Positions 11,286-41,901 of a DNA stretch of 64,000 bases are shown here, piece by piece. The position numbers and the translations under genes were made by a program. The DNA is from Cellulosimicrobium terreum (GTDB lineage: Bacteria > Actinomycetota > Actinomycetes > Actinomycetales > Cellulomonadaceae): assembly GCA_014803435.1 (NCBI GenBank), contig JACYFD010000002.1:659026-723025 (forward strand). Direction: 5' to 3'. Under the pieces are notes generated by a model. It was not told the DNA's origin and ran no database searches. It saw nothing but the letters and a program-made list of their open reading frames with translations. Within the stretch, counting starts at the first letter, position 1, and every line of letters begins with the position of its first letter.

Positions 11286-12020
11286 GTGGACCTCTCCTCC
11301 CGCGCCGTCCTCACGGCGTGCCTCTCGGCCGGTGTCGCCGTCGCCGCCTTCTTCGGACCTCTCCCGCTCGCTGCGGCCGCCGCGGTCCTGGCGCTGGTCG
11401 TCGCGATCGGCTGGCCCCGGCTGCTCGACGTCCCCGTCCACGGCGGCACCCGGGTCGTCGTGGCGCTGGCCGGTCTCGGTGCCGTCGGCGCGACGGCCGC
11501 CACCCAGGGTGAGCCCGCGCTCCGGCACCTGCCCGTCGTGCTCGCCCTCGCCGTCGTCCTCGCGTTCGTCGCCGAGCTGCTGCGCCGCGACGGCCGCCCC
11601 CGCCTCGTCGAGTCCCTCAGCGGGACCGTGAGCGGCATCGTGGTCGCGACCTCGTGCGCGGGGTGGATCGCGACCGGGCGGACCGACGCCGGGGCGTCGC
11701 TCGTCGTCACGTGCGCCGTCGCCCTCGCGGTCGCGTCCGCGGTCTCCGCGCTGCCGCTCGGCCCGTGGGTGGGGGCGGCCGCGACGCTCGGGCTCGCCGT
11801 CGTCGCAGGCGGCGCGGTCGGGTTCGTGATGCCGGACCTGGACATGATCAGCGGCGCCTGGTCGGGCGTCGTCGCCGGTCTGCTCGTCGCGTCGCTGCAC
11901 GCCCTGTTCGACCAGCTCCCGGAGCTGCGCGGTCGCCTCGGGGCGCTCTCGGCCAGCGCGCTCCCGGTCGCGGTCGGAGGGACGCTGATCTTCGTCGTGG
12001 GCAGGGTGATCGTGGGATGA
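11286..12020 (+). CDS. Multi-pass membrane protein downstream of glnR region
   Basis: The protein has 244 residues, almost entirely hydrophobic, with about seven or eight predicted membrane segments (around 9-24, 27-45, 55-68, 78-96, 105-121, 130-153, 158-180, 222-243). One polar loop (DLDMISGAW) separates the later segments. I do not recognise a named family, but a membrane protein at this position, next to glnR and before a thioredoxin and DUF4395 gene, is a recurrent actinobacterial arrangement. The TGA stop overlaps the ATG of the thioredoxin gene (ATGA). Confidence 0.75.
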   Translation: MDLSSRAVLTACLSAGVAVAAFFGPLPLAAAAAVLALVVAIGWPRLLDVPVHGGTRVVVALAGLGAVGATAATQGEPALRHLPVVLALAVVLAFVAELLRRDGRPRLVESLSGTVSGIVVATSCAGWIATGRTDAGASLVVTCAVALAVASAVSALPLGPWVGAAATLGLAVVAGGAVGFVMPDLDMISGAWSGVVAGLLVASLHALFDQLPELRGRLGALSASALPVAVGGTLIFVVGRVIVG

Positions 12021-12496
12021 CGCCGCAGCCCGGGACCGCTGTGGTCCTGCTCGTCGTCACGCTGACCGCGACCCTCCTGCTCGGGGTGGTGTGGCGCCGC
12101 CGTCAGGGCGTCGTGCGCGCCGGGCCCGCACGAACCCCGCGCGTCGCCTCCGCCGGCGGTGTGGTCCCGACCGTCGACTGGGCCGGTCACGGCGTCGAGC
12201 TGGGCGCCCGCCGGACCTTCGTCCAGCTCTCCGCGGAGCTGTGCGCACCGTGCCGCGCCACGGCACGCGTCCTCGGCGAGGTCGCCGCGGCGCACGACGA
12301 CGTGACGCATCGTGAGATGGACGTCGACGACCACCTCGACCTGGTGCGGGCGTTCGGCATACTGCGCACACCGACCGTCCTCGTCCTCGACGCCGAGGGG
12401 CGGGAGGTGGCGCGTGCCAGCGGTGCCATGAACCGCAGGCAGGCGCTCGCAGCGCTCGACGCCGGGACCGACCTGTCGAGGCCGCGACCGGCCTGA
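12017..12496 (+). CDS. Membrane-anchored thioredoxin-fold protein
   Basis: The protein has 159 residues. A membrane segment at about 8-25 is followed by a short Arg/Pro linker and a thioredoxin domain with the active-site pair Cys76-Ala-Pro-Cys79 and the cis-Pro region LRTPTVLVLDAEG. The domain would face outside, where it could reduce or exchange disulfides. It overlaps the preceding membrane-protein gene by four bases and is followed after 27 bp by DUF4395, a partner it commonly has in actinobacteria. Confidence 0.86.
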   Translation: MTPQPGTAVVLLVVTLTATLLLGVVWRRRQGVVRAGPARTPRVASAGGVVPTVDWAGHGVELGARRTFVQLSAELCAPCRATARVLGEVAAAHDDVTHREMDVDDHLDLVRAFGILRTPTVLVLDAEGREVARASGAMNRRQALAALDAGTDLSRPRPA

Positions 12497-12523
12497 TCGC
12501 GTCGAACCGACGGAGGAGGACGC

Positions 12524-12997
12524 ATGAGCGAGCAGCACGGTCGGGACGACGCACGCAGGCCCGCGCCGACGGACGGGATCGACCCCCGGGGACCCCGCGC
12601 GGGGGCGGGCATGACGGCACTCCTCCTCGCCGCGGTGATCCTGCTGTGGACGTCGCCCGCGGCGCTCGCCCTGCTCGCCGTGGTCGCCGGGAGCTTTCTC
12701 CTCGGTGCTGTCCGGGGGGCGCAGGGCACGTGGCAGGCCTGGGTCTACCGGGCGCTGATCCTGCCGCGCATCGGCCCGACGGAAGAGACCGAGGACCCGC
12801 GGCCGCCGCGCTTCGCGCAGACGGTCGGGCTCGTCGTCACCGGGTCCGGCGTCGTGCTGGGGCTCCTCGGGGTGGCGGGCGCGGTCCCGGTCGCCGCGGC
12901 GCTCGCGCTCGTCGCGGCCGTGCTGAACGCCGCGTTCGGGCTCTGCCTCGGTTGCGAGCTGTACCTGCTGGTCCGTCGGGTGGCGCCGGCACGCTGA
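12524..12997 (+). CDS. DUF4395 membrane protein
   Basis: The protein has 157 residues. After a polar N-terminus with GIDPRGPRAGAG, it has about four membrane segments and the signature FGLCLGCELYLL near the C-terminus, a CxxC-type motif inside a membrane helix that characterises DUF4395. These proteins are repeatedly found with thioredoxin or sulfurtransferase genes and probably take part in thiol/sulfur chemistry at the membrane; that role is inferred from context. A GGAGGA site sits just before the ATG. Confidence 0.86.
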   Translation: MSEQHGRDDARRPAPTDGIDPRGPRAGAGMTALLLAAVILLWTSPAALALLAVVAGSFLLGAVRGAQGTWQAWVYRALILPRIGPTEETEDPRPPRFAQTVGLVVTGSGVVLGLLGVAGAVPVAAALALVAAVLNAAFGLCLGCELYLLVRRVAPAR

Positions 12998-13035
12998 CGC
13001 ATGAGCGGTCCCGGGCGGCCGGTAGGATCGTGCGC

Positions 13036-13149
13036 ATGAGTCCGCACACTCTCGAGCTGATCTTCCTCGGCCTCCTGATCGCTGCGACGATCACCATCAC
13101 GTGGTTCGCGGGATACGTCGTCTACAAGCTCTACCGGGGCCAGCGCTGA
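13036..13149 (+). CDS. Small single-pass membrane protein (37 residues)
   Basis: The sequence MSPHTLELIFLGLLIAATI continues to a positively charged end VYKLYRGQR and is one hydrophobic helix of about 22 residues. A polar end follows a CGTGCGC spacer rather than a clear ribosome-binding site, so the start is less certain. It is too short for family assignment. Confidence 0.55.
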   Translation: MSPHTLELIFLGLLIAATITITWFAGYVVYKLYRGQR

Positions 13150-32081: not shown

Positions 32082-32702
32082 GTGACGACGCAGGGGACGC
32101 CCCGGACGGCCGAGGAACCGGCCCGGGACGAGGCGTGGTTCGCCGCGCTCTTCGCGGCGCACTCGACGGTCCTGTACCGCTACTTCCGGCGCCGGCTGCC
32201 TGCCTCGCGGGGAGCGAGCGGGCAGGACGCCGAGGACCTGGTCGCCGAGGTGCTGGTGGTCGCGTGGCGCCGGCGCGACGACGTCCCCGAGGGGGCCGAG
32301 CTCCCCTGGCTGTACCGGACGGCGGGCTTCCTGCTGGCGAACCACCGGCGCAAGGCCCGCCCCGTCCCCGTGGCCGACCTGCCCGACGCCGCGGACGACG
32401 CGGCCGACGTCGAGCACGTCGTGGTCCAGGACGACCTGGTGCGTCGCGCGCTCGCCGCCCTGTCGGTGCGGGACCGGCGCATCCTGCTCCTGCAGGCGTG
32501 GGAGGGCCTGGGCGGGGACGACCTCGCGCTCGTCCTCGGGGTCTCGCGCGGCGGCGCGGACGCGGCTCTGTCGCGTGCCCGGTCGCGGTTGCGCGCGGCC
32601 TGGGAGGCGGCGGGGGCGGAGGCCGGGCCGGAGCACGGGGCCGCGGCAGGGGCCGCGGCAGGGTCCGGACCTGCCCGGGCGTCGCAAGACTCGGCGCCCT
32701 GA
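32082..32702 (+). CDS. ECF-type RNA polymerase sigma factor
   Basis: The protein has 206 residues from GTG 32082 with a GAGGAGGAGA site. Region 2 is represented by LFAAHSTVLYRYFRRRLP to AEDLVAEVLVVAWRRRDDVP (core binding and -10 recognition) and region 4 by LSVRDRRILLLQAWEGLGGDDLALVLGVSRGGADAALSRARSRLRAAW (-35 recognition). It lacks region 3, as ECF factors do. It ends with an Ala/Gly-rich tail. The next gene, 99 bp on, encodes a single-pass membrane protein that may be its anti-sigma factor. The regulon is unknown. Confidence 0.92.
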   Translation: MTTQGTPRTAEEPARDEAWFAALFAAHSTVLYRYFRRRLPASRGASGQDAEDLVAEVLVVAWRRRDDVPEGAELPWLYRTAGFLLANHRRKARPVPVADLPDAADDAADVEHVVVQDDLVRRALAALSVRDRRILLLQAWEGLGGDDLALVLGVSRGGADAALSRARSRLRAAWEAAGAEAGPEHGAAAGAAAGSGPARASQDSAP

Positions 32703-32801
32703 CCACACAGACCAGGCAGCGAGACGAACGCAGACGCCGACGCGGCGAGACCACGTCGACGGTGGAGACCGCGGACGGCGGTCCGGCACCAGGAGAGCAA
32801 G

Positions 32802-34244
32802 ATGACGACATCCGACCCGAACCGACCGGGGGACCAGCACGACGACGAGGCGTTCGCGCGCCTGAGCGCCGCCGACCCGGCGGCCGGGCAGGTGCCCGAC
32901 GAGGACGCGATCCGCGCTACGGTCGCCGCGCAGGTGCCGCTCGGGGCCGTGCCTGGCGGCACGGGGGAGGCGGGCGACCCGGTGGGCGGGCCGCGTGACG
33001 AGCTCGCCGCGCGTCGGGCCCGACGCCGCCGGGCTCCCCTTCAGGTCGCGGCGGCGGTCGCCGGTGTGCTGGTCGTGGGCGGGGCGGGATATGCGTTCGG
33101 CGCGTCCGGCCTCGGCGGGAGCGCGCCGTCGAGCATGTCGGACACCGCGGTGGGCTCGGCCGCCGACGCACCGATCGAGCTGCAGGAGGGCTCCGGGGCA
33201 GCGCCGGCGCAGGATGGTGCGGCGGACGGTGCCATGCGCAACGAGTCGGCGGACTCGGCGGGCGCTTCCGTGGACTCGTCGTACGCGGGCGGCTGGTGGG
33301 GGCGGACCGTGTTCCACCAGGACGGGCTGCCCACGGACCGCTCGAGCGCGCAGGGCTGGGCGTACGACGCCGCGGCGGTGGTCTCCGCGGACACGGCACG
33401 ACGGGCGGCCGAGGTCCTGGGCGTCGAGGGCGAGCCGGTCGAGGACCACGGCGGCTGGTTCGTCGGGGCGCCGGACTGGGACGGGCCGGTCGTCTCGCTC
33501 CAGGCGGACGGGCTCGCGAGCCTGAGCTTCAACGATCCGACGAAGGACCCGTGGACGTGCCTGGAGTCTCTTGCCGGGGGCGACCCGGTCGACGAGGGTG
33601 CCGTCGACGTGTGCACGGAGCCGGAGCACGGGGCGGCACCGGCCGGGGACGAGGCTGAGAGCACCCTGCGCGACGTCCTCGTCGACCTGGGTGTGGACGC
33701 CGACGCGTACGAGCTCGCGGTGGACGAGCAGGGGGAGACGGGGATCGAGGAGGGGGACACGGACGACCGCAGCACGTACGTGTCCGCCTACGAGGTCGTC
33801 GACGGTCAGCGCACGGGGGCGACGTGGTCCGGGACGTTCTCGGGGGCCGGGCTGTTCCAGCTCTACGGGTCCCTCGCGCCGCGGGTGAGCCTCGGGTCGT
33901 ACGACGTCGTGAGCGCGGCCGAGGCCGTCGAGCGGCTCGGTGACCCGCGGTTCACGACCGGTGGCCCGGTCGCGTACGGCGACGGCGCCGCCGAGAGCCG
34001 TGCCGTGGAGCCCGAGGAGATCCCCACGGTCCCGTCGACGGTCACCCCGGGGAGCCCGATCGCCTGGCCGGTGGCCGACGTGACGATCACCGACGCACGC
34101 CTCGGTCTCGCCGTGCAGTACCAGTCCGACGGCGCGGCGGTGCTGGTCCCGGCGTACGAGCTGACGGACGCGCGGGGGACCTCGTGGTCGGTCGTCGCGG
34201 TGGTCGACGAGCAGCTCGACTTCTCCGTGCCGTCGACGCCGTAG
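32802..34244 (+). CDS. Single-pass membrane protein, probable sigma-factor partner
   Basis: The protein has 480 residues from ATG 32802, with an AGGAGAGCAAG site. Residues 1-75 are cytoplasmic, acidic then Arg-rich (RARRRRAPLQ), and one membrane segment at about 80-102 precedes an exterior of 375 residues rich in Asp, Gly, Ser and Ala. The layout of a short inner domain, one membrane helix and a large outer domain directly after an ECF sigma gene fits an anti-sigma factor or signal receptor. The inner part has no clear zinc-binding anti-sigma HxxxCxxC motif, so the assignment is by context only. Confidence 0.72.
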   Translation: MTTSDPNRPGDQHDDEAFARLSAADPAAGQVPDEDAIRATVAAQVPLGAVPGGTGEAGDPVGGPRDELAARRARRRRAPLQVAAAVAGVLVVGGAGYAFGASGLGGSAPSSMSDTAVGSAADAPIELQEGSGAAPAQDGAADGAMRNESADSAGASVDSSYAGGWWGRTVFHQDGLPTDRSSAQGWAYDAAAVVSADTARRAAEVLGVEGEPVEDHGGWFVGAPDWDGPVVSLQADGLASLSFNDPTKDPWTCLESLAGGDPVDEGAVDVCTEPEHGAAPAGDEAESTLRDVLVDLGVDADAYELAVDEQGETGIEEGDTDDRSTYVSAYEVVDGQRTGATWSGTFSGAGLFQLYGSLAPRVSLGSYDVVSAAEAVERLGDPRFTTGGPVAYGDGAAESRAVEPEEIPTVPSTVTPGSPIAWPVADVTITDARLGLAVQYQSDGAAVLVPAYELTDARGTSWSVVAVVDEQLDFSVPSTP

Positions 34245-34333
34245 CGTCGGGGCGCGACCGGGCGCCCGTCGAGACGCTCAGGGGCGTACGCTTTTGCATG
34301 ACGGGTCGGCCCAGTTCGCGCTAAGGCGAACCT

Positions 34334-34369
34334 CTTTTGATTGACCATCGACAAAAGCGTGGCTAGGGT
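34334..34369 (+). promoter_or_regulatory. Promoter and operator of the ebo-variant operon
   Basis: A -35 TTGACC (34341-34346) and -10 TAGGGT (34364-34369) are 17 bp apart. CTTTTG (34334-34339) and CAAAAG (34352-34357) form an inverted repeat spanning the -35 box, a layout for a repressor. A second CTTTTG lies at 34291-34296; with flanks, ACGCTTTTG (34288-34296) pairs with CAAAAGCGT (34352-34360), and TTCGC/GCGAA (34315-34330) sits between. A leader of about 130 nt precedes the first start codon. Confidence 0.65.
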
Positions 34370-34505
34370 CACCCCAGGCCCGATGCCCCGGGCACCGAGA
34401 GCACTCCTGCGCTCCCGGCGGGGTCCGGGTCGGCGGTGGCGCCGATGCCACCGTCGCAGCACGACGCGACGCCAGGTGCGCCGCCGACGGACACCGGGAG
34501 CAACG

Positions 34506-35714
34506 ATGCACCACCTCGCCTCAGGACGGACCGGGCTGTGGCTCGTCGGGGCCCGCGGATCGGTCGCCACGACCGCGACGCTCGGCCTCGCCGCCATCGC
34601 CGAGGGCCACGCCGACGCCGTCGGGTGCGTGACCGACCGCGAACCCTTCACCTCCGCCGCCCTCCCGTCGTTCGGCGACCTCGTCGTCGGCGGGCACGAC
34701 GTGAGCGACGTGTCGATGCTCAAGCACGCCGAGGTCCTGGTCGACGCCGGCATGATCCCGCCGCGCCTCCTCGCCGCCGCCCACCCCGCGCTCGAGCGGG
34801 CGGACGCCGAGGTGCGCCGCGGCTACGACACCCGGCCCGGCGCCACGGGCCAGGGCGAGAACGGTGAGTCCCAGCAGGCCGCCGCCGAGCGGCTCGCCGC
34901 GGACATCACCGACTTCCGCGAGCGCCACGACCTCGCGCGTGTCGTCGTGGTCGACCTCGCCTCCACCGAGCCGCTCCCCGAGCCGATCCCGGAGTTCTCG
35001 GACCGCGAGCTCCTCCTCGCCGCGCTCGCGGACCCGGCCCGCGCGGTCCTGCCGCCCAGCTCCGTCGTCGCCTACGCTGCGCTGCTCGCCGGCGCGCCGT
35101 ACGCGGGCTTCACGCCGTCGGCGAGCATGAACCTGCCGGTGCTCGTCGAGCTCGCGAAGGAGCGCGGCGTGCCCGTCGCGGGCCAGGACGGCAAGACGGG
35201 CCAGACGTGGCTGCGCACGATCCTCGCCCCGGCGTTCGCCGCGCGCGGGCTGCGCGTGCTGTCGTGGGCGGGCGCCAACCTGCTCGGCGGCGGTGACGGC
35301 GCGACGCTCGCCGACCCCCAGGCGGTGCAGAGCAAGCTCGTGTCCAAGTCGCGCGGCCTGCAGGACCTCACCGGGACGCGTGTGACCCCGCTCCACATCG
35401 ACAACGTGCCCGACCTGGGCGACATCAAGGTCGCGTGGGACCACGTGCACGTCGAGGGCTTCCTCGGTTCGCGCCTCACGCTCCAGACCACGTGGTCCGC
35501 GTACGACTCGATGCTCGCCGCGCCGCTCGTGCTCGACCTCGCGCGCCTGCTCGCGCTCGCGGACGCCGCGGGATACGCCGGCCCGGTGCCCGAGCTCGGC
35601 TTCTTCTTCAAGGACCCCTGGGGCAGCGACGTGCACGACTTCGCCGCGCAGACCGTCGCGCTCGCGCGGTGGGTCGAGGAGGCGGACACCCGGCTGGCCG
35701 CGGCCCGTCCATGA
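34506..35714 (+). CDS. Inositol-3-phosphate synthase family protein (first gene of ebo-variant operon)
   Basis: The protein has 402 residues from ATG 34506 with a GGGAG site. It has the NAD Rossmann motif LWLVGARGSVATT and the myo-inositol-1-phosphate synthase features PPSSVVAYAALLAGAPYAGF, GQDGKTGQTWLRTILAPAF, LLGGGDGATLADPQAVQSK and the late GFFFKDPWGS. The catalytic lysines seem retained. Canonical enzymes cyclise glucose-6-phosphate. A related protein (SCO3243) lies next to the prenyltransferase family SCO3242 in S. coelicolor, as here. In this operon it may make a polyol phosphate for a lipid-linked or trafficked compound; that is inference. The stop overlaps the next start as ATGA. Confidence 0.88.
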   Translation: MHHLASGRTGLWLVGARGSVATTATLGLAAIAEGHADAVGCVTDREPFTSAALPSFGDLVVGGHDVSDVSMLKHAEVLVDAGMIPPRLLAAAHPALERADAEVRRGYDTRPGATGQGENGESQQAAAERLAADITDFRERHDLARVVVVDLASTEPLPEPIPEFSDRELLLAALADPARAVLPPSSVVAYAALLAGAPYAGFTPSASMNLPVLVELAKERGVPVAGQDGKTGQTWLRTILAPAFAARGLRVLSWAGANLLGGGDGATLADPQAVQSKLVSKSRGLQDLTGTRVTPLHIDNVPDLGDIKVAWDHVHVEGFLGSRLTLQTTWSAYDSMLAAPLVLDLARLLALADAAGYAGPVPELGFFFKDPWGSDVHDFAAQTVALARWVEEADTRLAAARP

Positions 35715-36679
35715 GTACGAGGAGCTCCTCGCGCGCCTCGTTGCACGACCATCTCGAGCTCGTCCGGGCGCCTGCCGTCCTGTCGGTCCTCGGGGACACC
35801 CTGGCGGGGGCCGCGGCCGCAGGTCACCGGATCACGCCGCGTCGTGCGCTCCTCCCGCTCGCGTCCGCGTGCCTCTACGCGGGCGGGATGGCGCTCAACG
35901 ACTACGCCGACCGCCACCTGGACGCGCTCGAGCGGCCCGAGCGGCCCATCCCGTCGGGCCGCGTCTCGCCGCGTCGTGCGCTGCAGGTCGCGACCGGCCT
36001 CGGGGCGGCAGGCCTCGGCCTCGCCGCGGCGGGCGGCGGACGACGCGCGCTCGCCGTCGCCGTCCCGCTGGCCGCGAGCGTGTGGGCGTACGACGCCGTC
36101 GCCAAGGAGAGCCCCGCAGGCCCAGCGGTCATGGCCGCGTGCCGTGGCCTCGACGTCCTGCTCGGCGCGGGCGTCGGACACCTGCGCGCGGCGCTGCCCG
36201 CAGCGACGGCGCTGGCCGCGCACACCGCGGGCGTGACCGTCCTGTCGCGCGGCGAGGTCCACGGCACGACGACGCCCGTGGCGGCCGCCGTCGCGAGCGG
36301 CACCCTCACGGTCGCCGGGTCGGTCGTCGCCGGCGCGCTGCGCGGTCGCGGCGCCGAGCAGCCCGACGGCGGCACGCCGGCCGGCCGGGTCGCCACCGCC
36401 TCGCGCGTCGCGGCCGTCGTCGCCGCGGGCGCGTACGTCGCGACGTGCCTGCCCCCGCAGCTCGACGCCGCGCGCGAGCCGTCCGCCGAGAACGCGTTCA
36501 CCGCGACGAAGTCCGGCATCCGCTCGATGCTGCCCCTGCAGGCGGCCCTGGCCGCGCGGGGCGGGAACCTCGGCTCGGTGGGGGTCCTTGCGGTCGTCGA
36601 GGTCGCGGGCCGCGTGCTCCGGCGTGCCGGCCACCGCAGGAGCCGCCTCGGCGGTCCGGCCGAGATGAGCGAGTCGTGA
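35711..36679 (+). CDS. UbiA-type prenyltransferase (SCO3242/EboC-like)
   Basis: The protein has 322 residues, with seven to nine membrane segments. The first Asp-rich motif reads NDYADRHLDALERPERPIPSG, i.e. NDxxDxxxD for Mg2+/diphosphate binding, and the second region YDAVAKESPAGPAVMAACRGLDVLLG is present in shortened form. UbiA enzymes attach isoprenoid chains to aromatic or polar acceptors at the membrane. It is the EboC role in ebo operons. It overlaps both neighbours by four bases. Confidence 0.9.
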   Translation: MSTRSSSRASLHDHLELVRAPAVLSVLGDTLAGAAAAGHRITPRRALLPLASACLYAGGMALNDYADRHLDALERPERPIPSGRVSPRRALQVATGLGAAGLGLAAAGGGRRALAVAVPLAASVWAYDAVAKESPAGPAVMAACRGLDVLLGAGVGHLRAALPAATALAAHTAGVTVLSRGEVHGTTTPVAAAVASGTLTVAGSVVAGALRGRGAEQPDGGTPAGRVATASRVAAVVAAGAYVATCLPPQLDAAREPSAENAFTATKSGIRSMLPLQAALAARGGNLGSVGVLAVVEVAGRVLRRAGHRRSRLGGPAEMSES

Positions 36680-37677
36680 GCGCGCGGCGCGAGCCCGGCG
36701 CCGGCGTCGGGCCCGACCAGCTCCCGTTCACGCTCGGCTACGGCACCAACGGGTTCACCGACCACCCGCTCGACGACGTGCTCGACGTGCTCGACCACGA
36801 GGGCTACACCGCGGTCGCGCTCACGCTGGGCTTCCCGCACCTCGACCCGTTCGCGCCCGGCTGGGGCGAGCGCGTCGACGCGCTGCGGTCCCGCCTCGCA
36901 GGGCTGCGCGGCGGTCAGGGCATGCGGGTCGTCGTCGAGACGGGCACGCGGTTCCTCCTCGACCCGTACCGCAAGCACCGCCCGACGCTCGTCGACGCCG
37001 AGGCGGACGTCCGCATGGACTTCCTCGAGCGCGCGATCGAGATCGCGGCCGGGCTCGACGCCGAGTGCGTCTCGTTCTTCTCCGGCGTCCTGCCCGACGG
37101 CGCGTCCCCGGCCGACGGGTGGGCGCGGCTGCGGGACCGGCTCCCGGTACTCGTCGAGCACGCGCGCACCCACGGGGTGCGGATCTCGCTCGAGCCCGAG
37201 CCCGGGATGCTCGTCGAGACCGTCGCGGACGCGCTGCGGCTCTTCTCGGAGATCGGCTGGTCGACCGGCGTCGGCGCGGTGCCTCCGGAGCTGGGCGTCA
37301 CCGTCGACGTGGGGCACTGCCTCGTCGTCGAGCCCGAGGGGGTCGTCGGCGCGCTGCACGCGGCGGCACCGTACCTCGCGAACGTCCAGCTCGACGACAT
37401 GCCGTCCACCCACCACGAGCACCGGCCGTTCGGCGAGGGCGAGATCGACCTGCCGCTCGTCCTGGCGACCCTTGCCGACGTCGGGTACACCGGGGTCGCG
37501 GCCGTCGAGCTGCCGCGTCACTCCTACGACGCGCCAGGGCTCGCGCACCGCAGCATGACAGCGCTGTGCGACGCCTGGGCGGCCCGACCGACGGGCGTCT
37601 CCCCGGAGCACGACCCGCACGAGACCGCCGACCAGGGCGGCCCGCGTGAACCTCGCGACACCCAGGAGGTGCCATGA
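36676..37677 (+). CDS. TIM-barrel sugar phosphate isomerase/epimerase-like protein
   Basis: The protein has 333 residues from GTG 36676, overlapping the prenyltransferase stop. It has the AP-endonuclease-2-type barrel, with metal-ligand residues in VVVETGTRFLLDP, SLEPEPGMLVE (Glu), TVDVGHCLVV (Asp, His), NVQLDDMPSTHHEHRPFGEGEIDLP (Asp and His) and AVELPRHSYDAP (Glu). The barrel is distinct from the later EboE gene. In most ebo operons only one barrel of this type is present, so this is an extra component. Substrate unknown. Confidence 0.86.
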   Translation: MSARREPGAGVGPDQLPFTLGYGTNGFTDHPLDDVLDVLDHEGYTAVALTLGFPHLDPFAPGWGERVDALRSRLAGLRGGQGMRVVVETGTRFLLDPYRKHRPTLVDAEADVRMDFLERAIEIAAGLDAECVSFFSGVLPDGASPADGWARLRDRLPVLVEHARTHGVRISLEPEPGMLVETVADALRLFSEIGWSTGVGAVPPELGVTVDVGHCLVVEPEGVVGALHAAAPYLANVQLDDMPSTHHEHRPFGEGEIDLPLVLATLADVGYTGVAAVELPRHSYDAPGLAHRSMTALCDAWAARPTGVSPEHDPHETADQGGPREPRDTQEVP

Positions 37678-38351
37678 CCTGGCCCGAGACCCCCGCGCCG
37701 ACCGGCGCACCCACCGACGGCGAGAGCTGGCTCGCGCAGGCCCGCGCCGACGTCGCCCGCGACCCCGGGACCGTGACACGGGCGTTCGCGCTCGCCGGGC
37801 GCAAGATCGGCCGGACGTCGCTGCACCCGGACACCGACCCGGTGGGCGTCCTGCACGGCACGGTCGACGACGCCGCGCGCGCGTCCCTCGTCGTGGCGCT
37901 CGCCGACGCGACGGGCGACGCGGCGGCGTTCGCGGCTGCCCTCGCCGACCTGTACCAGCTCGGTGACACGGCCGAGCGGCGCGGGGTCCTGCGGGGCCTC
38001 GACGCGCTCGTCGAGCGCGGTGAGCTCCCGGCCGAGGTCGTCGGCGTGGGCACCGATCTCGCGGCGGACGCCCTGCGGACCAACGACCAGAGCCTCGTCG
38101 CCACGGCCGTCGGACCCTTCGCCGCCGCGCACCTCGACCAGCACGCGTGGCGCCACGCCGTCCTCAAGCTCGTGTTCATGGGCGTGAGTCTCGACGCAGT
38201 CGCGGGGCTCGGCGACCGCTCCGACGACGAGCTCGCACGCATGGCCCGCGACTTCGCGGCCGAGCGTCGTGCGGCCGGTCGTGCCGTGCCCGACGACGTC
38301 GCCCGGCTCGCCCCGGACGTTCTCCTGACCAGCACCGAGAGGGACGCCTGA
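37674..38351 (+). CDS. eboA: EboA domain protein
   Basis: The protein has 225 residues from ATG 37674. It is helical and soluble, with the EboA-type C-terminal pattern ALRTNDQSLVATAVGPFAAAHLDQHAWRHAVLKLVFMGVSL and the conserved ARDFAAERRAAGR that follows. EboA has no assigned biochemistry; in cyanobacteria the ebo operon is needed to move a scytonemin precursor to the periplasm. It overlaps the TIM-barrel gene by four bases and the next ATG shares the last base of its stop. Identification rests on motif similarity plus operon context. Confidence 0.82.
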   Translation: MTWPETPAPTGAPTDGESWLAQARADVARDPGTVTRAFALAGRKIGRTSLHPDTDPVGVLHGTVDDAARASLVVALADATGDAAAFAAALADLYQLGDTAERRGVLRGLDALVERGELPAEVVGVGTDLAADALRTNDQSLVATAVGPFAAAHLDQHAWRHAVLKLVFMGVSLDAVAGLGDRSDDELARMARDFAAERRAAGRAVPDDVARLAPDVLLTSTERDA

Positions 38352-39229
38352 TGCGCATCTTCGACCCCCACATCCACATGACGAGCCGCACCACGGACGA
38401 CTACGAGGCGATGTACGCCGCGGGCGTGCGCGCGATCGTCGAGCCCGCGTTCTGGCTCGGCCAGCCGCGCACGAGCGTCGGGTCGTTCCTCGACTACTTC
38501 GACGCCCTGCTGGGCTGGGAGAGGTTCCGGGCGGCGCAGTTCGGGATCCGGCACCACGCGACGATCGCGCTCAACCCCAAGGAGGCCAACGACGCCCGCT
38601 GCCGCGAGGTGCTGGACGAGATCCCGCGCTACCTGCTCAAGGACGGTGTGGTCGCGGTCGGCGAGGTCGGCTACGACTCGATGACGCCCGAGGAGGACGA
38701 CGTGTTCGCGCGTCAGCTCCAGATGGCGCGCGACGCCGGGCTCCCCGTGCTCGTGCACACGCCGCACCGGGACAAGCTCGCGGGCACCGGCCGCACGCTC
38801 GACGTCGTCAGCGAGTCGGAGATCGCACCCGAGCACGTGCTCGTCGACCACCTCAACGAGACCAACGTCGCGCTCGTGCTCGACGCCGGGGCGTGGGCAG
38901 GGTTCTCGATCTACCCGGACACGAAGATGGACGAGGACCGCATGGTCGCGATCCTCCAGGAGCACGGGACGGAGCGGATGATCGTCAACTCCGCCGCGGA
39001 CTGGGGGCGCTCCGACCCCCTCAAGACGCTCAAGACGGGGCGCGCGATGCTCGCGGCCGGGTTCTCCGACGACGACGTCGACCGCGTGCTGTGGCGCAAC
39101 CCCGTGGAGTTCTACGGGCAGTCGGGCAACCTCGTGCTCGACCCCGTGCCGGGCTTCGTCGACGGCGGCCTCCCGACGCCGGGCGTCGAGTTCGAGGGCT
39201 CGTCCGTCCTGCGCGGCGTCCGGGCCTGA
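38351..39229 (+). CDS. TatD-family metal-dependent hydrolase (EboB-like)
   Basis: The protein has 292 residues. The metal ligands follow the TatD order: DPHIHM (His7, His9), VAVGEVGYDSM (Glu), PVLVHTPHR (His), VDHLNE (His) and NSAADWG (Asp). TatD enzymes are usually nucleases; the EboB subfamily acts in an unknown step of metabolite traffic. Its ATG shares a base with the eboA stop (TGATG). Confidence 0.9.
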   Translation: MRIFDPHIHMTSRTTDDYEAMYAAGVRAIVEPAFWLGQPRTSVGSFLDYFDALLGWERFRAAQFGIRHHATIALNPKEANDARCREVLDEIPRYLLKDGVVAVGEVGYDSMTPEEDDVFARQLQMARDAGLPVLVHTPHRDKLAGTGRTLDVVSESEIAPEHVLVDHLNETNVALVLDAGAWAGFSIYPDTKMDEDRMVAILQEHGTERMIVNSAADWGRSDPLKTLKTGRAMLAAGFSDDDVDRVLWRNPVEFYGQSGNLVLDPVPGFVDGGLPTPGVEFEGSSVLRGVRA

Positions 39230-39250
39230 CCGGGGATCGGAGCTGCTCAC

Positions 39251-40420
39251 GTGCTTCTCTCGTACTGCACCAACGTCCACCCCGCGGAGGACCTCGACGG
39301 CGTGCTCGACCAGCTCGCGCGCTACGCCGCCCCCGTGCGCGAGGCCGCGGGACTCGACGTGCTCGGCGTCGGGCTGTGGATGCCGGCGGTGCTCGCGCAC
39401 CGGCTCGCGGGCTCGCCGGACGACCGGGACCGGCTGCGCACGGCGCTCGCCGAGCACCGCCTCCAGGTGCACACGCTCAACGCCTTCCCGTACGGCGGCT
39501 TCCACGCGGACGTCGTGAAGCTCGACGTCTACACGCCCACCTGGGCCGACCCCGAGCGGCTCGCCTACACGCTCGAGTGCGCGCAGGTGCTGGCGGACCT
39601 CCTGCCCGACGGTGCGGACGGGTCGATCTCGACGCTGCCGCTGGCGTGGCGCGAGCCGTGGACCGACGCCGACGACGAGTCCGCGACGCGTGCGTTCGCC
39701 GAGCTCTCGGCCGGGCTGCGGGACCTGCGCGAGCGCACGGGCAGGACCGTGCGCGTCGCGGTCGAGCCCGAGCCCGGGTGCGTCCTCGACACGGTCGAGG
39801 ACGTCGTGACCTGGCTCGCCGCACGCACCGACCGGGGGATCGACCCCGAGCACGTGGGCGTCTGCCTCGACACGTGCCATCTCGCGGTGTCGTTCGCGGA
39901 CCCGGCCGGGGCGGTACGCCGCATCACCGACGCCGGGCTGCGCGTGGTCAAGGTGCAGGCGTCCGCGGCGCTGCACATCGCCGACCCCGCCGAGGACGCG
40001 GCACGCGGCGCCGTCGCCGGCTTCGTCGAGAAGCGCTACATCCACCAGGTCCGTGAGCTGGCCGCCGACGGCACGGTCCTCGCCGCGGACGACCTGCCCG
40101 ACGCGCTGGGCGACGGTCCCGGGCAGGGCCTGCCCGCGCAGGGGCCGTGGCGCGTGCACTTCCACGTCCCGCTGCACCACGAGCCCGCCGCGCCCCTGGC
40201 GGCGACGACGGACGTGCTGCGCACCGCGGTCGAGGCCGTCCGCTCCGCGGCGCACGGCGAGGACGCCCACCTCGACGTCGAGACGTACACCTGGGCCGTG
40301 CTGCCCGAGGGCGCGGCGACCGACTCGCTCGTCGCCGGCATCGCGGCCGAGCTCCGCTGGGCCACCACCCACCTCGCCGCCGAGGACGAGGGACGCACCA
40401 CCACCAGGAGGACCGCATGA
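39251..40420 (+). CDS. eboE: Metabolite traffic protein EboE (TIM barrel)
   Basis: The protein has 389 residues from GTG 39251, the only gene of the operon not overlapping its upstream neighbour (21-bp gap with a GGAG site). Family features: MLLSYCTNVHPAEDLDGVL at the start, LQVHTLNAFPYGGFHADVVKLDVYTPTW, VAVEPEPGCVLDTVED, VGVCLDTCHLAVSF, and the later VHFHVPLHHEP, ETYTW. It is an AP-endonuclease-type barrel with Glu, Asp and His metal ligands. The stop overlaps the next gene as ATGA. Confidence 0.9.
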   Translation: MLLSYCTNVHPAEDLDGVLDQLARYAAPVREAAGLDVLGVGLWMPAVLAHRLAGSPDDRDRLRTALAEHRLQVHTLNAFPYGGFHADVVKLDVYTPTWADPERLAYTLECAQVLADLLPDGADGSISTLPLAWREPWTDADDESATRAFAELSAGLRDLRERTGRTVRVAVEPEPGCVLDTVEDVVTWLAARTDRGIDPEHVGVCLDTCHLAVSFADPAGAVRRITDAGLRVVKVQASAALHIADPAEDAARGAVAGFVEKRYIHQVRELAADGTVLAADDLPDALGDGPGQGLPAQGPWRVHFHVPLHHEPAAPLAATTDVLRTAVEAVRSAAHGEDAHLDVETYTWAVLPEGAATDSLVAGIAAELRWATTHLAAEDEGRTTTRRTA

Positions 40421-41835
40421 AGCCCGTGCTGCTGCTCGACGTCGTCGGGCTCACCGCGAAGACCCTCGCCCACATGCCGCGGCTGCGTGCGCTCGCCGAC
40501 AACGGTTGGCAGTCCGAGCTCGCGACGATCCTGCCCGCCGTGACCTGCTCCGTGCAGTCCACGATGCTCACCGGCCTCAGCCCGGCCGAGCACGGGATCG
40601 TCGGCAACGGGTGGTACTTCCGCGAGCTGGGCGACGTGTACCTGTGGCGTCAGCACAACCGGCTGGTCGAGGGCGAGAAGCTGTGGGAGGCGGCCCGGCG
40701 CGCGCGCACCGGGTACGAGGCCGCGAACGTGTGCTGGTGGTACGCGATGGGCATGACGACCGACGTCACGGTCACCCCGCGTCCCGTCTACCACGCGGAC
40801 GGCCGCAAGTCGCCCGACGCGTACGTCCGCCCGCCCGCGCTGCACGACGACCTCGTCGGCCGGTTCGGCGAGTTCCCGCTCTTCACCTACTGGGGACCGA
40901 CGGCGTCCATCGCGTCCTCGCGCTGGATCGTCGACGCGACCCGCCACGTCCTGCGCACGCAGGCTCCCGACCTCACCATGGCGTACGTCCCGCACCTCGA
41001 CTACGACCTGCAGCGGTTCGGGCCCGACGCCCCGCAGGCGGACGCCGCCGCGGCCGAGCTCGACCAGGTGCTCGCACCCCTGCTCGACGACGCCGCGAAC
41101 CAGGGTGTGACCGTGGTCGCCGTGTCCGAGTACGGCATCGCGGGTGCCGACCGTCCCGTGCACCTCAACCGCATCCTGCGACGCGAGGGCCTGCTCGAGG
41201 TGTACGTGCAGGACGGCAAGGAGCAGCTCGACCCGTGGACGTCGCGCGCGTTCGCCGTCGCCGACCACCAGGTCGCGCACGTCTACCTGGGCGACCAGCA
41301 GGACACCTCCCTGCGGCGCCGGGTCGCCGACCTGCTGCGGACCGTGCCCGGCGTGGACGAGGTGCTCGACCGCGAGGCGCAGGCCCGGTACGGGCTCGAC
41401 CACGAGCGGTCGGGCGACCTCGTCGTCGTCGCGGAGCCCGGCGCGTGGTTCACGTACTACTTCTGGCTCGACGACGACCGCGCGCCCGACTACGCGCGCG
41501 GCGTCGACATCCACCGCAAGCCCGGCTACGACCCGGCCGAGCTGTTCTTCGACCCCGCCGACCCGCTCGCGAAGGCGAAGGCGGGGATGAACCTGGTGAA
41601 GAAGAAGCTCGGCCTGCGGTACGCGATGAGCACCGTCCCGCTCGACGCGTCGTACGTCCAGGGCTCGCACGGCCGGCTCCCGGACTCGTCCGCGGACACG
41701 CCGCTCGTGCTGTGCTCCGACCCGGACGTGCCGGCGTCCGTCGCCGGGCTCGTCGCGTCCGACGACGGTCAGGTGCCGGCGGCCGCGATCAAGGGCCTCG
41801 TGCTGGAGCTCCAGGGCCTCGGCGCACGCGTCTGA
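40417..41835 (+). CDS. Alkaline-phosphatase-superfamily protein (EboF-like)
   Basis: The protein has 472 residues from ATG 40417 with an AGGAGGA site. It has the phosphodiesterase/nucleotide pyrophosphatase fold: metal Asp in LLLDVVGLT, the nucleophile Thr region LPAVTCSVQSTMLTG, AYVPHLDYDLQRFGP and ADHQVAHVYL. The usual SDHGM metal motif reads SEYGI, so two of the expected ligands are changed; I believe this is a trait of this subgroup, but metal binding needs testing. It is the last gene of the operon. The DUF4241 gene is convergent with it. Confidence 0.88.
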   Translation: MKPVLLLDVVGLTAKTLAHMPRLRALADNGWQSELATILPAVTCSVQSTMLTGLSPAEHGIVGNGWYFRELGDVYLWRQHNRLVEGEKLWEAARRARTGYEAANVCWWYAMGMTTDVTVTPRPVYHADGRKSPDAYVRPPALHDDLVGRFGEFPLFTYWGPTASIASSRWIVDATRHVLRTQAPDLTMAYVPHLDYDLQRFGPDAPQADAAAAELDQVLAPLLDDAANQGVTVVAVSEYGIAGADRPVHLNRILRREGLLEVYVQDGKEQLDPWTSRAFAVADHQVAHVYLGDQQDTSLRRRVADLLRTVPGVDEVLDREAQARYGLDHERSGDLVVVAEPGAWFTYYFWLDDDRAPDYARGVDIHRKPGYDPAELFFDPADPLAKAKAGMNLVKKKLGLRYAMSTVPLDASYVQGSHGRLPDSSADTPLVLCSDPDVPASVAGLVASDDGQVPAAAIKGLVLELQGLGARV

Positions 41836-41836
41836 C

Positions 41837-41901
41837 CGGGCGGTCAGGTCGGGCGGTCAGGTCGGTCGGTCAGGTCCGTCGGTCAGGTCGGCGAGGTCAG
41901 T
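41837..41901. repeat. 13-bp tandem repeat (five copies)
   Basis: Units of consensus CGGKCGGTCAGGT: the first two are identical and the last is degenerate and runs into the stop of the DUF4241 gene. It fills the 61 bp between the two convergent genes. Confidence 0.88.

Follow-up and report, generated by a model that had tools for sequence, protein, structure and literature searches.

Within a 64 000-nucleotide stretch of the Cellulosimicrobium terreum genome (assembly GCA_014803435.1, contig JACYFD010000002.1, positions 659 026 to 723 025 of the forward strand; hereafter the window) lies a seven-gene ebo operon in which an enzyme of the inositol-3-phosphate synthase family (MIPS) and an extra TIM barrel (TIM3) occupy the place that is held by EboD in other bacteria. 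MIPS and EboD are never found together in any ebo locus that we examined, and the MIPS-type operon is the usual form of ebo in the Actinomycetota loci studied. We lean, by a modest degree, towards an interpretation in which MIPS and TIM3 take over from EboD the supply of a cyclitol, which would then be prenylated to give a membrane lipid that aids the traffic of metabolites.

The operon consists of seven plus-strand genes between positions 34506 and 41835, as read from the sequence:

34506..35714, + strand: MIPS-like protein of 402 amino acids (PF07994 173.7 bits, PF01658 101 bits), in the role of EboD
35711..36679, + strand: UbiA-superfamily prenyltransferase of the SCO3242 family (PF01040 72.3, NF045897 342 bits against a cut-off of 260), in the role of EboC
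36676..37677, + strand: TIM3, an extra xylose-isomerase-like TIM barrel and the partner of MIPS (PF01261 115.9 bits)
37674..38351, + strand: EboA-domain protein (NF035938 149.9, cut-off 50)
38351..39229, + strand: TatD-like metal-dependent hydrolase (PF01026 48.8, cut-off 27), in the role of EboB
39251..40420, + strand: EboE TIM barrel (NF035939 442.1, cut-off 250)
40417..41835, + strand: alkaline-phosphatase-superfamily phosphodiesterase or phosphatase (PF01663 218.9 bits), in the role of EboF

Taken in order, the junctions are overlaps of 4, 4, 4 and 1 bases, a 21-base gap between EboB and EboE, and a final overlap of 4 bases. An initial annotation of the window had described just such a run of seven co-directional genes, with five overlaps of 1–4 bases and one 21-bp gap. 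It had also proposed that the EboA and EboE assignments be checked against profiles. Both EboE and the EboA domain pass their NCBIfam cut-offs, while the stricter EboA_family model NF035937 is not passed (65 against a cut-off of 320). Homologues of EboB and EboF lie in the same operon, and HMMs (hidden Markov models) built from the actinobacterial genes recover the EboB and EboF of EboD-type operons. The EboB-role protein has a solved relative in AF_1765 (3guw, E 1.3e-25), and that in the EboF role gives a weak match to structures of phosphonoacetate hydrolase. By profile search, then, the seven-gene set is an ebo operon.

It is one that lacks EboD. The sole dehydroquinate (DHQ) synthase match in the genome scores 143 bits with the EboD model, compared with 592–685 bits for EboD proteins. 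EboD is thus absent from the genome, and the possibility of an EboD hidden elsewhere within it was rejected for this reason. This agrees with the statement of the initial annotation that a cyclitol-phosphate synthase and an additional barrel stand where EboD would be expected. In the absence of EboD we file the operon as an ebo variant, and not as a full member of the family. Like the operon EboABCDEF as presented in PMC5133447, it is a tight operon with an EboA domain, EboB, EboE, EboF and a UbiA homologue; it differs in having MIPS and a metal-site barrel for EboD, a UbiA of the SCO3242 family, and the order MIPS-UbiA-TIM3-A-B-E-F. Operons that lack EboD are described in section 3.2 of that paper, and no word starting with 'inositol' occurs in its main text.

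How widespread is the MIPS-type operon? Of 150 genomes in the family to which the window belongs, 58 have an EboE above the cut-off, as do 26 of 396 genomes in the phylum (the window's own genome being counted in both). From these we collected 60 actinobacterial ebo loci, made up of all 28 places in the 26 other matching genomes of the phylum and one set of 32 from the 58 other matching genomes of the family. The order MIPS-UbiA-TIM3-EboA-EboB-EboE-EboF is complete and on one strand in 52 of the 60, and with the same genes, order and strand recurring so often the arrangement is far beyond chance. The initial annotation had suggested such a survey of synteny, and had foreseen that its reading would fall if a DHQ-synthase-like gene proved to be usual in close relatives. 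This is not the case, since the MIPS-type is the usual form; nor is the arrangement a peculiarity of one genome. A Streptomyces plasmid record has the identical seven genes in the same order, annotated individually.

The eight exceptions are varied. L013 has no MIPS, L023 has no TIM3, L020 is of the EboD-type and L039 is broken, its EboE being present as fragments only. Genes are missing from L042, L067 and L068, of which the last two start at a contig end. L070 is rearranged, with its ebo genes in an unusual order and its EboE in two parts some 6 kb from each other. Outside these eight, the MIPS of L060 is split into two pieces.

For classification we took loci in which EboE scores at least 150 bits, applied HMM domain thresholds of 100 bits for MIPS, 200 bits for TIM3 and 150 bits for EboD, and kept the best match per gene. 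This gave 163 EboE loci, comprising 27 of the 28 phylum-sample loci (L039 falling below the threshold), all 32 family-sample loci, 13 of 22 loci from plasmids (nine more had been included on account of their MIPS or UbiA and are without EboE), all 80 loci from GTDB, and 11 of 15 further loci from the phylum of G545 (Thermomicrobiales), that of G552 (Acidobacteria) and the class to which G450 belongs. MIPS and TIM3 are present without EboD in 62 of them, and EboD without either in 88; one has MIPS only (L023), two have TIM3 only (L013 and L067), and ten have none of the three. MIPS occurs together with EboD in none of the 163. Up to an E value of 0.01 no EboD locus has a MIPS match above 15 bits, and no MIPS locus has any EboD match. 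TIM3 likewise is absent from all 88 EboD loci, one of which (L119) holds a distant barrel at 43 bits, and its occurrence among ebo loci is limited to MIPS-type operons or second copies of these. The genes for EboB, EboE, EboF and a UbiA homologue are common to the two types.

The pattern extends to whole genomes as far as EboD is concerned. It is found in none of 42 MIPS-type genomes, where the best match scores 187 bits, and in nine of ten EboD-lineage genomes searched it scores at least 592 bits. The tenth, Lewinella G553, has ebo genes without EboD, and carries MIPS and TIM3 elsewhere in a locus with a YcaO gene. In a Nostoc genome (L098/G554) EboD is missing from the ebo locus and present elsewhere in the genome.

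The exchange of EboD for MIPS and TIM3 would have happened at least twice, judged by a concatenated tree of EboB, EboE, EboF and UbiA (36 rows). In this tree the MIPS-type locus of Gemmatirosa (L082) falls within the EboD lineage, and a single clade of MIPS-type operons is rejected (p-AU 2.07e-5). The neighbours of Gemmatirosa in the EboF and EboE trees are other EboD-type rows than those in the concatenated tree, and given these differences the Gemmatirosa locus may be a mosaic. In the tree of MIPS itself the actinobacterial ebo copies form one clade (98/95) with the haloarchaeal copies apart, and the Gemmatirosa copy groups with MIPS from YcaO loci and other MIPS sequences (93/89). This grouping is the pattern expected from separate recruitment, in a tree whose root is unsure because the outgroup is a very long branch. 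Haloarchaea have a plasmid cluster (L072, L073, L180 and L178) of a TatD-like gene, a barrel, UbiA and a second barrel, with MIPS and an EboF-like gene nearby; in Haladaptatus L178 it is without MIPS in the stretch examined. Of similar appearance are L176, with the genes barrel, EboB, barrel and UbiA, and L177, a short contig with a barrel and UbiA.

The product of the first gene was called inositol-3-phosphate synthase-like in the initial annotation, and this assignment stands. Its product belongs to the MIPS fold family by both PF07994 and PF01658, and the closest solved structure is Archaeoglobus fulgidus MIPS (1u1i, E 2e-60). All 62 sequences aligned, from the window and 61 loci (the Gemmatirosa protein and the fragment in L018 were left out of this alignment), have K277, K281, K308, K369 and D334, and the Gemmatirosa protein keeps them too. 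They align with K274, K278, K306, K367 and D332 of the A. fulgidus enzyme, which we take to be its catalytic residues. The start at 34334 did not hold, as relatives begin to align near 34506; the gene most likely begins at ATG 34506, the upstream part being an extension of the open reading frame (ORF) that begins after a hairpin.

Could MIPS and TIM3 be housekeeping genes that have moved beside ebo, providing inositol for phosphatidylinositol or mycothiol? The homology of MIPS itself is in keeping with this, as is the presence of MIPS genes away from ebo in other ebo genomes. Yet the C. terreum genome has a second PF01658 gene (L001) that is the mycothiol INO1 equivalog at 710 bits, and the operon copy reaches 26.7 with the same model against a cut-off of 638. 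With the canonical enzyme present as a separate copy, a housekeeping role for the operon MIPS is disfavoured. The 4-base overlap of MIPS with the UbiA gene, and the pairing of MIPS with TIM3 in 62 loci and never with EboD, point the same way, and we regard this explanation as highly improbable.

TIM3 has the features of a metal-dependent ketose epimerase or IolI-like barrel. The residues E173, D211, H214/H247 and E278 are invariant in 64 of 64 aligned sequences (63 loci and the window, with L021 left out), forming a putative Glu-Asp-His-Glu site that presumably corresponds to the metal site of the ketose epimerases and IolI. A profile that includes haloarchaeal and YcaO-locus barrels matches the structures of MJ1311, UlaE, IolI (1i60, E 1.5e-18) and allulose epimerase, and also that of the dehydratase IolE (3cny, E 1.2e-12). 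MIPS and TIM3 travel together outside ebo in four loci with a YcaO gene, in Hymenobacter (L074), Roseomonas (L075), Methylobacterium (L181) and Lewinella (L174), where they may belong to an inositol-derived pathway. L074 and L075 additionally carry Gfo/Idh oxidoreductases and PIG-L deacetylases. The natural reading is that MIPS and TIM3 would form a two-step unit for making a cyclitol.

The prenyltransferase PRENYLTRANSFERASE has both of the Asp-rich motifs of the UbiA superfamily, NDYADRHLD and YDAVAKE. A UbiA homologue thus fills the EboC slot as the initial annotation had it, with the qualification that it is of the SCO3242 family and below the EboC equivalog cut-off (NF035940 144.9 against 250). 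This cut-off is likewise missed by the UbiA of L072 and by that of the EboD-type L020. With a profile from both types of operon (alignment A7, 17 rows) the nearest structure is the archaeal digeranylgeranylglyceryl phosphate (DGGGP) synthase 6m31 (E 2.2e-22), followed by chlorophyll synthase (1.9e-11), the 4-hydroxybenzoate prenyltransferase 4od4 (3.5e-9) and a further aromatic UbiA structure (4.7e-4). The window protein shares the stretch NDxxDxxxD...RPxPSG with 6m31. DGGGP synthase forms an ether with a prenylated polyol phosphate, and this is the kind of step that a cyclitol phosphate would need. A point in favour of our preferred reading is that one EboD-type operon (L020) carries a type 2 isopentenyl-diphosphate isomerase. 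In this actinobacterial operon the isomerase gene (L020:11322-12362; TIGR02151 319.7 against 281.3) overlaps the stop codon of EboF.

Three positions of UbiA, 22, 142 and 171, tell the MIPS-type from the EboD-type, with about 85% or better in both types. The clearest of them is position 22, which lies in the first membrane segment: it is alanine in all 62 actinobacterial MIPS-type sequences (from the window and 61 loci) as well as in Gemmatirosa, and asparagine in all 82 EboD-type sequences compared (of 88 loci). DGGGP synthase has asparagine at the equivalent position in its first transmembrane segment, and so the alanine looks to be derived. At position 148 aspartate is found in 61 of the 62, asparagine in 68 of the 82, and serine in Gemmatirosa.

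What might the operon make? In the scheme that we prefer MIPS would convert glucose 6-phosphate to inositol phosphate, and TIM3, perhaps with EboE, would epimerize or isomerize the cyclitol or its oxidized form using a bound metal. The membrane prenyltransferase would then place an isoprenoid chain on a hydroxyl group of the cyclitol or its phosphate, as DGGGP synthase does on prenylated glycerol phosphate. EboF could remove phosphate and EboB hydrolyse an intermediate, with EboA as an accessory. The prenyl-cyclitol would stay in the membrane and help other metabolites to cross it, as the ebo genes are reported to do for the scytonemin monomer in Nostoc (PMC6282210). An isoprenoid-cyclitol with an antimicrobial or protective role, made via EboD and EboC, was proposed by Yurchenko et al. 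(2016, PMC5133447), and the exchange for MIPS lends independent support to the cyclitol half of their idea. The initial annotation had likewise suggested a cyclitol-based isoprenoid, and the analysis strengthens that suggestion as an inference. A bolder and quite tentative version can be drawn from the same data. Actinobacteria might make a prenyl-inositol (phosphate) ether lipid as a counterpart of the archaeal ether lipids, with a head group from MIPS and TIM3 and a prenyl chain added by the SCO3242-type enzyme, as a general membrane helper or carrier in the export of bulky compounds, aromatic polyketides and lipopeptides for example. In EboD-type bacteria a matching lipid would be made from sedoheptulose 7-phosphate, and the change of asparagine to alanine at UbiA position 22 would mark the switch of head group.

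A number of observations weigh against our preferred explanation. The GTDB loci are the best 80 of at least 591, ranked against EboE of the EboD-type, so this sample leans towards EboD. Of the 88 EboD loci 87 are from outside the Actinomycetota, and the MIPS-type EboE loci are all actinobacterial except Gemmatirosa. This taxonomic confounding is lessened by one actinobacterial family (f45) that holds both types (L020 with EboD and L173 with MIPS), and by the position of Gemmatirosa in the concatenated tree. The second exchange depends, however, on the single Gemmatirosa record, and in the tree of EboE by itself a single MIPS clade is not rejected (p-AU 0.445). L018, one of the 52 loci with the usual order, has only a 110-residue piece of MIPS, and the second-copy loci L013 and L023 lack MIPS and TIM3 respectively, their genomes holding the full operons L016 and L017. 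The EboD-type locus L079 has a different sugar-phosphate isomerase/epimerase adjoining EboB. MIPS is found away from ebo (219–294 bits) in 6 of 13 mostly EboD-lineage genomes, G553 included, so that MIPS is excluded from the operon and not from the genome as a whole. The haloarchaeal clusters with MIPS show no EboE or EboA, and their prenyltransferases have asparagine at position 22 in three cases out of three. Lastly, the UbiA of Gemmatirosa is EboD-like at positions 142 and 171.

The chemistry of the prenylation step is also open to another explanation, in which TIM3, EboE and EboB dehydrate the cyclitol to an aromatic or quinoid ring that the UbiA enzyme then C-prenylates. According to PMC9235831 the related EboC enzyme Ubi-297 farnesylates aromatic quinoline acids in vitro, a finding that speaks for an aromatic acceptor, and the match of TIM3 to the dehydratase IolE fits such a course. 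Moreover the window UbiA protein taken alone does not separate chlorophyll synthase (1.2e-5) from 6m31 (4.1e-5), the former being slightly above. The two-type profile is nevertheless nearer to DGGGP synthase than to chlorophyll synthase and the aromatic enzymes, and we consider aromatic prenylation rather unlikely.

Alternatively ebo may be a mix-and-match toolkit in which shared tailoring genes lead to different products, a carba-sugar or aromatic compound in the EboD-type and an inositol-derived one in the MIPS-type. MIPS is known as a family to keep the phosphate. The sugar phosphate cyclase (SPC) enzymes release it according to section 3.7 of PMC5133447, and the two types may for this reason feed different products. 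The confinement of TIM3 to the MIPS-type operons and their second copies, and the differences at UbiA positions 22, 142 and 171, can be read in the same sense. Against this, the sharing of EboB, EboE, EboF and a UbiA homologue suggests a common later pathway, and we hold divergent products to be possible but doubtful.

Some relatives of the operon sit within biosynthetic clusters, and their neighbours fit a service role in the traffic of metabolites. We looked at eight Streptomyces plasmid loci, chosen from 28 Streptomyces among 47 plasmid EboE records; as these were chosen and many records are near-identical, we claim no rate for such neighbours. In four of the eight (L182, L183, L185 and L188) a gene of the ScyD/ScyE family lies 109–235 bases 5′ of MIPS, with a multicopper oxidase and an aromatic prenyltransferase also nearby. 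The full operon of L184 adjoins a type II polyketide cluster, and L187 is near a non-ribosomal peptide synthetase (NRPS) gene; L081 has the neighbours of L187, the NRPS being absent from the stretch shown. In L186 EboE (11965-13143) stands within a type II polyketide cluster, with no further ebo gene in the stretch. Among the other loci compared, ScyD/ScyE homologues occur only in Nostoc parmelioides (L115).

The ScyD/ScyE-family genes give the four Streptomyces loci a likeness to the scytonemin system of Nostoc punctiforme, whose ebo cluster shares EboA, EboB, a C-type enzyme, EboE and EboF with the operon of the window. As described in PMC6282210, movement of the scytonemin monomer in Nostoc requires the ebo genes, the compound that accumulates in ebo mutants is the same as in a scyE mutant, and an EboD homologue is placed near the ebo cluster. 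Two other Nostoc genomes (G554 and G555) have EboD and no MIPS match, unlike the MIPS-type operons.

The CDA region of Streptomyces coelicolor provides a further comparison. SCO3242 gives its name to the prenyltransferase family; beside it and SCO3243, SCO3237–SCO3241 are presumably the other five genes of the operon. In PMC3610822 SCO3242 and SCO3243 fall within the CDA range SCO3210–SCO3249, and SCO3243 is listed as a myo-inositol phosphate synthase. There the genes are inside a lipopeptide cluster, in contrast to the window, where no polyketide synthase (PKS) or NRPS domain was found by Pfam in 20 flanking frames (nine of which have no Pfam match, several being doubtful ORFs). This agrees with the initial annotation, which saw no host cluster next to the operon. 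The SCO3242 family already bears a name at NCBI, where the genes are annotated individually. In the open-licence literature searched, which does not cover subscription papers and preprints, we recognised no paper describing the MIPS-type operon or its exclusion of EboD.

A further possibility is that inositol is turned by the operon into a small secondary metabolite, soluble or secreted, and that the Nostoc export phenotype is indirect. The antimicrobial or protective role in the proposal of Yurchenko et al. would suit this, as would MIPS and TIM3 in the YcaO loci, two of them with Gfo/Idh and PIG-L genes. The host clusters in Streptomyces are quite different from one another, and this variety suits a service function more than a single fixed product; a soluble metabolite accordingly seems improbable to us.

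The immediate surroundings of the operon in the window contain one candidate signal, for which the evidence is a consensus match (one found, against a mean of 0.1 in shuffled sequences):

34314..34331, + strand: terminator-like hairpin that separates the operon from the gene upstream of it

A scan of 34240-34520 gave no sigma-70 promoter, and there was no Rfam match at gathering scores to a known RNA element between 32000 and 43000. Just 5′ of the operon, at 32082-34244, are a gene for a sigma-70-family factor and then a 480-amino-acid gene without a Pfam match. Short repeats around GGTCAGGTCGG lie at 41836-41890, between the end of the operon and a convergent DUF4241 gene.

The chemistry of the ebo product matters because this poorly understood set of genes, thought to help metabolites across membranes, is distributed across many phyla. 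The mutual exclusion of two unrelated ring-forming enzymes from one slot of the operon is independent evidence for a cyclitol as the input of the pathway. With the actinobacterial form the question can be put in Streptomyces, which is genetically tractable and in which inositol can be labelled, and the MIPS-type ebo operon may explain why these genes are present beside clusters of the antibiotic type.

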